A stretch of DNA of 64,000 bases from Sphingobium arseniciresistens (lineage in GTDB: Bacteria; Pseudomonadota; Alphaproteobacteria; Sphingomonadales; Sphingomonadaceae): the NCBI GenBank assembly GCA_029167225.1, contig JARFNK010000007.1, positions 62,001 to 126,000 on the forward strand, read 5' to 3'. Below the pieces are notes generated by a model. The model worked only from the letters and a program-made list of their open reading frames with translations. It was not told the origin of the DNA and did not search any database. Position numbers and translations under genes: made by a program. The stretch's first letter is position 1. Each line of letters opens with the position of its first letter. Below are positions 12,187 through 57,137 of the stretch, in pieces.

Positions 12187-12213
12187 GACTTATCCCCCCA
12201 CATGTTATTATTG

Positions 12214-12251
12214 TTTGAAGCCTTGCCGCTATTATACGGCAAGGCTTCAAA
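12214..12251 (-). terminator. Hairpin between pilin gene and cpaB (partial terminator/attenuator)
   Basis: Perfect 15-bp stem with an 8-base loop; arms 12214-12228 and 12237-12251, core GAAGCCTTGCCG / CGGCAAGGCTTC. On the minus strand it follows the pilin stop by 7 bases and is not followed by a real U-run. It is therefore more likely a partial terminator or mRNA-stabilising structure that lets pilin transcript exceed the rest of the operon. Confidence 0.7.
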
Positions 12252-12258
12252 ATTATGC

Positions 12259-12444
12259 TCAGCAGGTGCCGTTGGTCGGACCGTTGTCGATGCAGTCCGT
12301 GGCATTTTCCATCGCGTTCGAGATCGAGCCGCCCAGGGCAAAGGCCGCGCCGGCAATGCCGGTGCCGACAATGGCCAGGATCAGCGCATATTCAGCAGCC
12401 GATGCGCCGCTTTCGTCGTTCCACAGTTTCTTGATAACGTTCAT
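12259..12444 (-). CDS. pilA: Flp/Fap-type major pilin
   Basis: 61-residue Flp pilin, the structural subunit of the Tad pilus. After a short leader comes the prepilin peptidase site: cleavage after the Gly of 'DESGASAAEYALILAIVGTG' leaves ASAAEY with Glu at +5 and Tyr at +6, the Flp signature. A single hydrophobic helix follows, then a short tail with two Cys ('CIDNGPTNGTC') that could form a disulfide. An AGGA ribosome site lies 5 bases before the ATG. It is the first gene of the tad operon, preceded by a long AT-rich intergenic region. Confidence 0.95.
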   Translation of the reverse strand: MNVIKKLWNDESGASAAEYALILAIVGTGIAGAAFALGGSISNAMENATDCIDNGPTNGTC

Positions 12445-12847
12445 TTTCCTACCCCTATGCTCTGCCGGATTAGCCCGGCTATTTCGCTTTCGCGTCGGAG
12501 TTTTGAACGGTGCGACCCCGACGGCGCCTTTGTGGGACGCCTGCCCGATTTGGCAGTTTCCACGAAAGCTGAGGCAAGTAACTGCTTAGTCTTGGAATCT
12601 GTCAATATAGCAAATTTTATTGTTATATTTCAGTAGTTTGAAGTGAATTTTTGTTAACCATATTGGCTTATCTGGGGAAAATTCACCAAATCAAACTCGA
12701 ATCAAACAAGTATATCTTTAGATATACCCATGTATTGATTCGTTTTTATTTGCCTTCATGATAATCAATATCACGGCTTTACATGAAGGTGTGGAGGGAT
12801 TTCTGTGCGCTGCAGCATGCGCGGCGGCGGAAGGCGCGGCGCATCCG
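12445..12847 (-). promoter_or_regulatory. AT-rich control region upstream of the pilin gene
   Basis: About 400 bp without a gene. Bases 12601-12780 contain 52 G+C of 180 (29 %, hand count), far below the surrounding coding DNA. A TTGACA hexamer on the minus strand (12605-12600) faces the pilin, but its -10 match (GTTACT) is weak. A perfect inverted repeat GTATATCT-TT-AGATATAC lies at 12710-12727. A second pair, CCTTCATG / CATGAAGG (12753-12760 and 12782-12789), brackets a GATAATCAATATC stretch. This is the natural place for pilin promoter and regulator binding; the regulator is unknown. Confidence 0.6.
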
Positions 12848-54203: not shown

Positions 54204-57137
54204 ATGACCGACCAGCCTGCCAAAGAAACCCCGGACTACAAGTCCACCGTCTTCCTGCCCGTCACCGACTTTCCGATGAAGGCGGGACTGGCGCAGAAGG
54301 AGCCGGCGATCGCCGCCCGCTGGGACGCGATGGACCTCTACGGCCAGCTGCGCGCCCGCCGCGCCGGGCGGGAGCGCTTCATCCTGCATGACGGCCCGCC
54401 CTATGCCAATGGCGACATCCACATGGGCCATGCGCTGAACAAGGTGCTCAAGGACATCATCGTGCGCAGCCAGAGCCTGCTCGGCAAGGATGCGCCCTAT
54501 GTGCCCGGCTGGGATTGCCACGGCCTGCCGATCGAATGGAAGATCGAGGAGGAATATCGCAAGAAGAAGCTGAACAAGGACGAGGTGCCCGCGCAGGAAT
54601 TCCGCGCCCAGTGCCGCGCCTATGCCGACAAATGGGTGGGCGTGCAGAAGGAGCAGTTCAAGCGCCTTGGTGTGATGGGCGACTGGAACGACCCGTATCT
54701 GACCATGAAGTATGAGGCGGAGGCCGCCATCGTCGGCGAGCTGTTGAAGTTCGCGGAAAGCGGCCAGCTCTATCGCGGCGCCAAGCCCGTCATGTGGTCT
54801 CCGGTGGAAAAGACCGCGCTGGCCGAGGCGGAAGTGGAATATGAGGACGTCACCTCGACCCAGATCGACCTGGCGTTCGAGATCACCGAAGCGCCGAACG
54901 CGCCGGAAATCCAGAAGTTGATCGACGCTGGCGAGAAGGTCTCGGCGGTAATCTGGACGACGACCCCGTGGACGATCCCGGTGAACCAGGCGATCGCTTA
55001 TGGGGAAAAAATCGAATATACATTAATATCGCATGAGGGCGCGTATTACTTAGTCGCCGAAGATCTTTACCAATCACTATTGGTCCGAATTGGAGAGTGG
55101 CCCAGTTTAGAAGAAATCTTGGGTGGCGATTTAGGAGATTCCGCACAGCCGAGTAAGGAACGGCTCACATTGACGAGCCTCGATGTGTCCGAGGTAAAGG
55201 AGTCGCCTAAAATTGAGGGCTCCCAACTCGCCGGCGCCGTCGCCCGTCACCCGATGCACCATCTCGGCGGCTTCTTCGCGCGGCCGCGTCCGCTGCTGCC
55301 CGCCGACCATGTCACCATCGACGCCGGCACCGGCCTCGTCCACATGGCGCCGGACCATGGCGAAGAGGATTTTCTTGCGTGCAAGAAGCTGGGCATCGAT
55401 CCGGTCTTCGCGGTCGATGACGCCGGTTTCTACCGCGCCGACTGGGAATGGCTGCCGGGGCAGGGCAGCGTCATCAACACCAAGTTCAACGGACCCGAAG
55501 GCCCGATCCTGAGCGATCTGCGCGAAGTGGGGGCGTTGCTTTCCGCCGGCGACTTCAGGCACAGCTACCCGCATAGCTGGCGGTCGAAGGCGCGCATCAT
55601 CTTCCGCTGCACGCCGCAATGGTTCATCCCGATGGACGATCGCCATACAAGTGCCGAGAACGCAGCGGAGCTGGCGGCTGCTGCCGGAAATGCGGCCACC
55701 TTGCGCGAAGTCGCGCTGGATGCCATCGCCCACACCCGCTGGGTGCCGGAGCGTTCCACCAACCGTATCCGTTCCATGGTGGAGGGCCGCCCGGACTGGG
55801 TGATTTCCCGCCAGCGCGCATGGGGCGTGCCGATCGCGCTCTATGTCCACCGCAAGAGCGGCCATTATCTGAACGACCCGGCCGTCAACGCGCGCATTGT
55901 CGAGGCGTTCAAGGCCGGCGGCGCGGACGCATGGTTCGGTGCGGATCATCAGGCGCTGCTCGGCCCGGATTATGCGCTGGACGATTATGAGGTGGTCAAC
56001 GACATCCTCGACGTGTGGTTCGACAGCGGATCGACCCACGCCTTCACCGTCGAGGCGCGCTATGGGCAGGGCACCCGCGCGGACCTGTATCTGGAAGGGT
56101 CGGACCAGCATCGCGGCTGGTTCCAGTCCTCGCTGCTCGAAAGCTGCGGCACCCGTGGCCGCGCGCCCTATGAGGCGGTGCTGACCCACGGCTTCGCGCT
56201 GGACGGCAATGGCCGCAAGATGTCCAAGAGCCTGGGCAATGTCGTCGATCCGCTCAAGATCATGGGTGAGAGCGGCGCCGACATCCTGCGCGTCTGGGTG
56301 GCGAGCACCGATTATTTCGACGATGTGCGCATCGGCAAGGAAGTGCTGGCCGGCGCATCCGACGCCTATCGCAAGCTGCGCAACACCTTCCGCTATCTGC
56401 TGGGCGCGCTCAGCGACTTCACCGAAGACGAGAAGGTCGCGCCGGCCGACATGCCGGAACTGGAGCGCTACATGCTCCACCGCCTGGCGGAGCTGGACGC
56501 GGAACTGCGCGGCGTAGCGGACAAGAGCGCGGGATCGGAAAGCTGGCTGGAATTCAGCCGCTACACCCGCGCGCTGATGGACTTTGCCAACAGCGATCTC
56601 TCCGCCTTCTTCTTCGATATCCGCAAGGACTGCCTCTATTGCGATGCGAAGACCGACCTGAAGCGCCGCGCCTATCGCACCGTGCTCGACACGCTGTTCC
56701 ACGCGCTGGTGCGCTATGCGACGCCCATCATCCCCTTCACGGCGGAAGAAGTGTGGCAGAGCCGCTTCCCGAACGAGGCGGAGAGCGTGCATTTCCTTGA
56801 GTGGCCGGAAGTGGATGCCGGATGGCGCGATACGGCGCTGGGCGAGAAGTGGGCGAATATCCGCGCGACCCGCGATCAGGTGAACGAGGCGATCGAGCCG
56901 CTTCGCCGCGAGAAGATCGTCCGGTCCAGCCTTGAGGCTGACGTGAAGATGGCGGGCGTTCCCGCCGCCGTCGACTTCGCCGAAATCTGCATCGTCGCGA
57001 AGATAGAGGATGCCGCCGAAGGGATCAGCGTCACCCCGTCCGACTGGCACAAATGCGGCCGCTGCTGGCGCCTGCTGCCCGAAGTGACCGAAGACGGCGC
57101 GCTCTGCGACCGCTGCGACGATGTGCTGACGGCATGA
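54204..57137 (+). CDS. ileS: Isoleucyl-tRNA synthetase
   Basis: 977-residue class I aminoacyl-tRNA synthetase. The HIGH motif appears as 'PYANGDIHMGHALNK' (about 66-80), the editing CP1 domain carries 'TTPWTIPVNQAIAYG' and 'DAGTGLVHMAPDHGEEDF', KMSKS is 'GRKMSKSLGN' (about 671-680), and the C-terminal zinc finger is 'CGRCW' and 'CDRC'. All catalytic elements are intact. An in-frame low-GC segment (about residues 270-344) replaces the expected CP1 linker sequence; see the separate entry at 55013-55235. Flanked by repeat elements on both sides. Confidence 0.95.
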   Translation: MTDQPAKETPDYKSTVFLPVTDFPMKAGLAQKEPAIAARWDAMDLYGQLRARRAGRERFILHDGPPYANGDIHMGHALNKVLKDIIVRSQSLLGKDAPYVPGWDCHGLPIEWKIEEEYRKKKLNKDEVPAQEFRAQCRAYADKWVGVQKEQFKRLGVMGDWNDPYLTMKYEAEAAIVGELLKFAESGQLYRGAKPVMWSPVEKTALAEAEVEYEDVTSTQIDLAFEITEAPNAPEIQKLIDAGEKVSAVIWTTTPWTIPVNQAIAYGEKIEYTLISHEGAYYLVAEDLYQSLLVRIGEWPSLEEILGGDLGDSAQPSKERLTLTSLDVSEVKESPKIEGSQLAGAVARHPMHHLGGFFARPRPLLPADHVTIDAGTGLVHMAPDHGEEDFLACKKLGIDPVFAVDDAGFYRADWEWLPGQGSVINTKFNGPEGPILSDLREVGALLSAGDFRHSYPHSWRSKARIIFRCTPQWFIPMDDRHTSAENAAELAAAAGNAATLREVALDAIAHTRWVPERSTNRIRSMVEGRPDWVISRQRAWGVPIALYVHRKSGHYLNDPAVNARIVEAFKAGGADAWFGADHQALLGPDYALDDYEVVNDILDVWFDSGSTHAFTVEARYGQGTRADLYLEGSDQHRGWFQSSLLESCGTRGRAPYEAVLTHGFALDGNGRKMSKSLGNVVDPLKIMGESGADILRVWVASTDYFDDVRIGKEVLAGASDAYRKLRNTFRYLLGALSDFTEDEKVAPADMPELERYMLHRLAELDAELRGVADKSAGSESWLEFSRYTRALMDFANSDLSAFFFDIRKDCLYCDAKTDLKRRAYRTVLDTLFHALVRYATPIIPFTAEEVWQSRFPNEAESVHFLEWPEVDAGWRDTALGEKWANIRATRDQVNEAIEPLRREKIVRSSLEADVKMAGVPAAVDFAEICIVAKIEDAAEGISVTPSDWHKCGRCWRLLPEVTEDGALCDRCDDVLTA
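55013..55235 (+). other. In-frame low-GC patch inside ileS
   Basis: Within ileS, bases 55021-55200 contain 88 G+C of 180 (49 %), against 43 of 60 (72 %) in the line 55261-55320. Codons avoided elsewhere in the gene (TTA, CTA, ATA, TTG, ACA) cluster here. The translation 'EKIEYTLISHEGAYYLVAED' to 'KESPKIEGSQLAG' stays in frame and keeps the CP1 domain plausible, and it seems longer than the usual linker ('PSLEEILGGDLGDSAQPSKE' region). The junctions are sharp on both sides. It looks like a localised replacement or insertion from a source of different base composition. Confidence 0.7.

Follow-up and report, generated by a model that had tools for sequence, protein, structure and literature searches.

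In Sphingobium arseniciresistens, a short low-GC patch within ileS, the gene coding for isoleucyl-tRNA synthetase (IleRS), was shown by comparison of sphingomonad sequences to represent one allele of a hypervariable cassette in the editing region of the enzyme. The patch lies in a 64,000-bp stretch of the genome (contig JARFNK010000007.1, positions 62,001 to 126,000; hereafter the window). The exchanged allele spans positions 55008 to 55217 of the window on the forward strand, corresponding to amino acids (aa) 269-338 (70 codons), and relatives cannot be aligned across it. Its guanine-plus-cytosine (GC) content is 0.462, with a GC content at third codon positions (GC3) of 0.49 compared to 0.84 for the remainder of the gene. 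The patch is probably one of many functional alleles in an old pool that recombination over short tracts exchanges, and the diversity of this pool would be kept by selection from a putative antagonist.

The IleRS editing region is hypervariable among sphingomonads

Our Sphingobium set comprised 94 genomes including that of the window. All but one of the 93 others (G063) contained a match; matches were listed for 88 of them, while G004, G056, G064 and G076 matched and stood outside the detailed set. No listed alignment crossed the segment in any of these 88 genomes, since the blastn pieces stopped at about query positions 104-121 and restarted at about 313-369. The first pieces end in a conserved left flank (54945..55019, forward strand) that carries invariant residues, including the Thr-rich editing motif WTTTPWT (aa 251-257, 54954-54974) and Tyr272, and homology is lost just past codons E271-Y272. 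The second pieces begin in a conserved right flank (55218..55330, forward strand), also evident in the per-nucleotide identity profile. The sequence-variable part thus stops at 55217, before the conserved GSQLAGAVARHPM with which this flank starts, and not at 55235 as proposed in an earlier note on this DNA.

After removal of duplicates, segments were extracted from 89 Sphingobium, 124 other sphingomonad and 41 other alphaproteobacterial (outgroup) ileS genes, with bounds set by a BLAST anchor instead of a motif for 14 of the 124 and 25 of the 41. The mis-bounded L062 and the outgroup sequence L160 were excluded, so that the main counts are over 88 + 124 = 212 sphingomonad genes and 40 outgroup genes; the fourfold-site GC, neighbouring-window and outgroup-identity figures still contain both. 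At the family level 255 genomes had a match, part of which were fetched (30 loci and 60 stretches).

Segment length ranged from 39 to 91 aa in Sphingobium and from 38 to 104 aa in other sphingomonads, compared to 45-54 aa in the other alphaproteobacteria. Across 21945 of the 22366 possible pairs (pairs with short flanks were excluded), the median segment identity was 0.29-0.30 in every class of flank identity, from 0.40-0.50 through 0.98-1.00 (Spearman coefficient 0.05), while four neighbouring 60-aa windows gave coefficients of 0.15-0.66 against flank identity. The outgroup segment yielded a coefficient of 0.35, and nearly all outgroup pairs with flanks more than 0.7 identical had segment identities above 0.5. 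In 113 Sphingobium pairs with flanks above 88% and segments below 40% identity, per-nucleotide identity within the segment was 0.17-0.61, mostly below 0.46, and at codon positions 1 and 2 it climbed to near 1 within a few codons of each boundary. Different alleles were found in 10 of the 12 closest pairs (less than 10% mismatch in both far flanks), and segment identity was below 0.45 in 41 of the 45 closest pairs ranked by near-flank identity. For instance, L042 and L052 differ by 3% over the first 600 nucleotides (nt) upstream, yet their segments are 29% identical. Single linkage at 50% identity, under which the largest family may chain, sorted the 212 genes into 130 allele families, 106 of them singletons including the allele of the window.

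The earlier note had read the patch as a one-off replacement in the window strain from a distant, low-GC donor, and the atypical composition on which this reading draws is real. The GC content of positions 55021-55200 is 88/180 (0.489), exactly as the note had counted, and the segment is enriched in the rare codons that it had named (TTA 4 and 0, CTA 1 and 0, TTG 3 and 4, ATA 1 and 1 among the 70 segment codons and the 907 other codons, respectively); the flanks, put near 70% GC, measured 0.62-0.67 over 300 bases on either side. When the codons of ileS were shuffled 5000 times, no 70-codon window with so low a GC3 arose, and a 60-codon window in the segment had the lowest GC3 (0.45) of the 2962 such windows in 56 called open reading frames (ORFs) covering 84% of the 64 kb (mean 0.829, standard deviation 0.077). 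However, a fall in GC3 of more than 0.1 relative to the flanks recurs at this position in 79 of the 88 Sphingobium genes (that of the window included) and 102 of the 124 other sphingomonad genes, compared to 6 of 40 in the outgroup. Moreover, the allele of the window was matched in 4 of 397 family genomes only: its own, G188, and weakly G126 (36%) and G474 (32%). The nearest allele, from G188, belongs to another genus (55% identity over 82 aa with the conserved tail, 48% over the segment alone) and to a GC-rich sphingomonad with a flank GC3 of 0.75, leaving the call for a low-GC donor unsupported. A single event in this strain is thus scarcely credible. Close relatives, which the note had proposed to inspect for the same low-GC sequence, share the low GC and not the sequence. 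Its central proposal, a localized in-frame homologous exchange within the editing (connective peptide 1, CP1) region, is borne out. A change in fidelity or inhibitor sensitivity, raised by the note as an inference, would be a hypothetical consequence; the WTTTPWT editing motif is invariant in a 60-sequence alignment.

The variability appears largely confined to sphingomonads and, among 420 gene pairs of two close genomes, to ileS

The homologous segment was crossed by one continuous alignment in 55 of 60 other Brevundimonas genomes and 48 of 60 other Paracoccus genomes. Order-level loci were taken from the best 30 of 58 matching genomes, and 16 of them lie outside family f1 (44 such genomes match). 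Eleven of these 16 (from f2, f5, f6 and f8) have a segment of exactly 50 aa whose GC3 departs from that of the flanks by no more than about 0.11; length varies, between 40 and 71 aa, in L312 (f8), L313 (f3) and L322-L324 (f4). Among 420 orthologue pairs from two Sphingobium-set genomes, G026 and G027 (median protein identity 98%), no gene but ileS credibly showed this pattern. We discounted a second hit (G026 591165-591923), whose upstream start seems to have been called wrongly, as a probable artefact of ORF calling. Among the matches listed in a search of the open-access literature, we found no description of a hypervariable aminoacyl-tRNA synthetase segment, including that of sphingomonad IleRS.

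Alleles are exchanged between lineages

Both Sphingobium and other genera are represented in 15 of the 24 multi-member allele families. On a quick tree of flank DNA that kept a distance of 120 nt or more from the segment, clade status was rejected for all seven Sphingobium allele families with at least three members (approximately unbiased test, P = 7×10−4 to 5×10−67). Two pairs reveal recent events. L030 and L043 share an identical 325-nt tract that spans the segment (48 nt upstream, 189 nt of segment and 88 nt downstream), whereas the first 600 positions upstream contain 37 differences. Past the downstream end of the tract, an indel disturbs the comparison. Their synonymous divergence (dS) is 0 in the segment and 0.242 in the flanks. 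In L035 and L079, a shared tract of about 302 nt contains a single mismatch (dS 0.028 in the segment, 0.391 in the flanks). Conversely, the segments are older than the flanks in L077/L083 (dS 1.2 and 0.33, respectively), L072/L076 and L007/L055. Pieces both younger and older than the surrounding gene are as predicted by exchange from an old allele pool. Allele sharing across genera against the flank tree, together with the two recent tracts of about 300 bp, indicates that alleles pass between lineages by short-tract homologous recombination, acting in the flanks, a conclusion in which, from sequence comparison, we have very high confidence.

The sharing of families by several genera also bears on whether alleles could be made in place, by local hypermutation, a diversity-generating element, silent cassettes, or insertion of palindromic repeats followed by decay. 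Repeat-like peptides were seen by eye in five alleles (L024, L071, L089, L107 and L309), as insertion and decay would predict, but these alleles have a GC3 of 0.60-0.69, above the usual value, and the low ratios of nonsynonymous to synonymous substitution (dN/dS) within families (see below) also speak against local creation. The allele of the window showed no repeat-derived sequence by eye, repeat-like peptides being present in a few other alleles; a formal repeat-family search was not made. The window strain's own genome contains only short matches to the region beyond the ileS locus (49 bases or fewer, E-value 7×10−4 or worse). In the absence of a second good match, silent donor cassettes were ruled out for this genome, and creation in place is altogether very improbable, although no search aimed at a diversity-generating retroelement was made.

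An origin of the window allele in a phage or plasmid was likewise dropped: phage and plasmid records gave no tblastn match up to an E-value of 0.1 and plasmids no DNA match. A whole-protein search of viral contigs returned 20 loci, all 40% identical or less. Separately, locus L400 (NZ_CP076395.1 27230-37542) lies on a 404-kb Sphingopyxis indica plasmid, typed as conjugative, on which ileS occurs alongside lspA and a gene for riboflavin kinase, not far from an IS6100 transposase gene; the segment there has 58 aa and a GC3 of 0.59. Such a plasmid is a possible vehicle for ileS exchange.

Purifying selection acts on the segment in most allele families

Within allele families, the dN/dS of the segment was 0.04-0.28 save for a few pairs, and undefined in some, indicating that in most families the protein evolves under purifying selection. 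A small scaffold is retained between alleles (Y, LVA..L...F..R and GxxLAG), the remainder being mostly unalignable. In the 212 aligned segments, Tyr272 is essentially universal, and the Ala of LVA, Leu288 and Arg295 are present in 95%, 97% and 96%, respectively. In the window, the scaffold within the segment (LVA..L......R, aa 283-295, 55050..55088, forward strand) is modelled as a strand followed by a helix: an AlphaFold model based on 60 sequences, with a mean predicted local distance difference test (pLDDT) score of 90.1, places strands at residues 271-277 and 280-285 and a helix at 286-295. A low-confidence loop follows (aa 297-336, 55092..55211, forward strand), with pLDDT values of 60, 50 and 50 for residues 301-310, 311-320 and 321-330.

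These data allow two further explanations to be weighed. Turnover could be driven at the level of DNA, by a sequence-specific nuclease, an integrase or a self-targeting system. The boundaries are indeed sharp at the nucleotide level, and turnover affects all three codon positions. Against such a target, synonymous change would be enough for escape, yet whole proteins are replaced and then conserved within families; nor was the allele of the window found in phage or plasmid records, a search that did not extend to CRISPR spacers or nucleases. We consider a DNA target improbable. Alternatively, the segment may be a permissive surface under relaxed constraint, where ordinary recombination of old variants leaves unselected diversity. 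The low pLDDT (50-60) of residues 301-330, the widely variable length and the repeat-like peptides of some alleles, which imply that foreign DNA is tolerated there, would all fit. This reading is harder to reconcile with the dN/dS values, with scaffold residues conserved at 95-100%, with replacement in 10 of the 12 closest pairs when most neighbouring 60-nt bins show less than 20% mismatch, and with ileS standing alone among 420 orthologue pairs. It also sits poorly with a homologous segment that can be aligned end to end in most genomes of Brevundimonas and Paracoccus and keeps 50 aa in 11 of 16 other-family loci. Neutral tolerance is therefore an unlikely explanation.

The low GC content of the segment

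At fourfold-degenerate sites, the GC content of the segment is 0.578 in Sphingobium, compared to 0.912 and 0.860 for its flanks, and 0.633 in other sphingomonads, compared to 0.909 and 0.894; in the outgroup the three values are similar (0.782, with flanks at 0.764 and 0.767). In two 400-kb blocks of G026, the DNA not assigned to called ORFs has a GC content of 0.62-0.65, and the pooled Sphingobium value for the segment (0.58) is lower still. All donors identified here are GC-rich sphingomonads, so foreign origin accounts poorly for the low GC. A weaker proposal is that an unalignable segment takes little part in homologous gene conversion and would drift towards an AT-biased mutational equilibrium. 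The available part of one study reports that GC content is higher in bacterial genes with evidence of intragenic recombination (PMC4450053); under GC-biased gene conversion as treated there, an unalignable segment should lose this push. That work, as far as the available part goes, contrasts genes with one another, and its extension to the contrast within ileS is hypothetical. If GC-biased conversion is lost, the dip should be smaller in common alleles, and there is a weak sign of this: the GC3 dip is modestly linked to allele rarity (rho = −0.33; partial −0.23 after accounting for length). This weak link is equally predicted by amelioration with age. We advance only tentatively the combined picture of an arms race with allele-specific antagonists, in which the surface is swapped across genera and the segment forms a non-recombining island with GC near the mutational level.

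Other features of ileS and of the window

The ileS gene (54204..57137, forward strand), identified from its ORF and translation, TIGR00392 and the Pfam domains tRNA-synt_1 and Anticodon_1, codes for an intact IleRS of 977 aa that scores 788 bits against NCBIfam TIGR00392 (cut-off 621.4). HMGH is readable in its sequence. In a 60-sequence alignment (A1), columns H73, G75, K672, S674-S676 and W251-T257 are invariant and M673 is nearly so; we take H73/G75, K672-S676 and W251-T257 to be the HMGH, KMSKS and WTTTPWT motifs. By score and motifs, the enzyme is otherwise an ordinary IleRS, its novelty lying in the cassette. From their translations, the neighbours of ileS are presumably a ribF-like ORF on one side and an lspA-like ORF on the other.

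A second indel site lies at aa ~479-500 (55638..55703, forward strand), where many other sphingomonads (A1 rows L094-L130) carry palindromic-repeat-like peptides, recognized by eye, of the SPEGEG and MPAKAGIS types, for example. They are reminiscent of Rickettsia palindromic elements. At a third site, just past an ARHPM-like motif, L022, L063, L089, L093, L117 and L121 contain a repeat-like insertion of 98-135 nt, in frame in five loci; it measures 98 nt in L022, so that this copy may be broken or misassembled.

Elsewhere in the window, a called ORF at 12202-12636 has a low overall GC3 (0.50) and is possibly acquired or not a gene. The G000 assembly (6.6 Mb) has an estimated contamination of 6.0% and is the largest among the listed genomes of the genus. 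Assembly artefact or contamination was ruled out as the source of the segment because independent assemblies of relatives have a segment of the same type and the flanks match Sphingobium.

Discussion

We propose that conserved flanks enclosing a variable segment of 38-104 aa allow recombination to bring in alleles from an old pool, and that selection favouring rare or new alleles would keep them diverse. The segment may be a surface recognized in an allele-specific manner by a putative IleRS antagonist, such as a phage protein, a competitor toxin or a natural product; recombination would then replace this surface and leave the aminoacylation and editing residues untouched. We prefer recognition by an antagonist to neutral looseness because the target is bounded, the scaffold and editing motif are kept, constraint operates within families and turnover between close species is high, although we put the chances of the antagonist itself at slightly under even.

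Several observations weigh against this interpretation. The selective driver is one that we infer, and the antagonist is putative. One genome per species was sampled, placing polymorphism within species out of view. The GC3 dip did not exceed 0.1 in 9 of the 88 Sphingobium and 22 of the 124 other sphingomonad genes. Some vertical signal persists: pairs more than 0.5 identical in the segment made up 0-0.6% where flank identity was 0.85 or less and 3.5-4.8% where it was above 0.95, and the multi-member families need 30 changes on the flank tree (minimum 15), a count without a shuffled reference value. The gradient of divergence in the flanks of the closest pairs is slight, so that most swaps are deduced from mosaicism. 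As for specificity, the remaining 12 of 60 Paracoccus genomes did not align in one piece, seven of them giving two flank pieces, and the comparison of G026 and G027 covered 227 + 193 pairs over about 800 kb in two genomes. Finally, many within-family dS values exceed 1, making the dN/dS ratios imprecise, and the ratio reached 0.42 in L177/L183.

Aminoacyl-tRNA synthetases are usually counted among the conserved core enzymes and used as markers in phylogeny, whereas this segment of ileS differs in most of the closest pairs and is ill-suited for typing sphingomonads. A variable segment where 11 other-family loci keep exactly 50 aa points to a putative agent that attacks or reads IleRS, and the many natural allele pairs could be used to find it. 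The contrast within a single gene also bears on why bacterial GC content exceeds the mutational expectation; if the segment is a non-recombining island, GC-biased gene conversion in bacteria would become directly testable.

Comparison with known systems

The window IleRS is a full member of TIGR00392, but past its Thr-rich editing motif it has a hypervariable, AT-rich stretch, unlike the 50-aa segment of 11 other-family loci. Exchange of the target-recognition domains of HsdS and of the pilE and tprK cassettes likewise swaps a variable segment by recombination between conserved flanks. Unlike these, the ileS segment has no known DNA or antibody binding, and, in contrast to pilE and tprK with their silent cassettes, the window strain's own genome yielded no donor cassette. 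Negative frequency-dependent selection in prokaryotes is described in the available part of PMC4410459 for loci kept diverse by viral predation, at which recombination is locally raised; those loci sit in variable regions with mobility genes, whereas ileS codes for a core tRNA synthetase. The closest pattern is that of flagellin, although there the protein is the surface (H) antigen, whereas IleRS is an essential cytoplasmic enzyme without a known variable partner. As described in the accessible portion of PMC7018530, flagellin combines a shared region with a hypervariable region that comes in distinct forms, too divergent to be aligned with one another and themselves variable. In ileS, too, the cores are unalignable between close relatives while the flanks align, and the forms of the core are, as in flagellin, exchanged by recombination.

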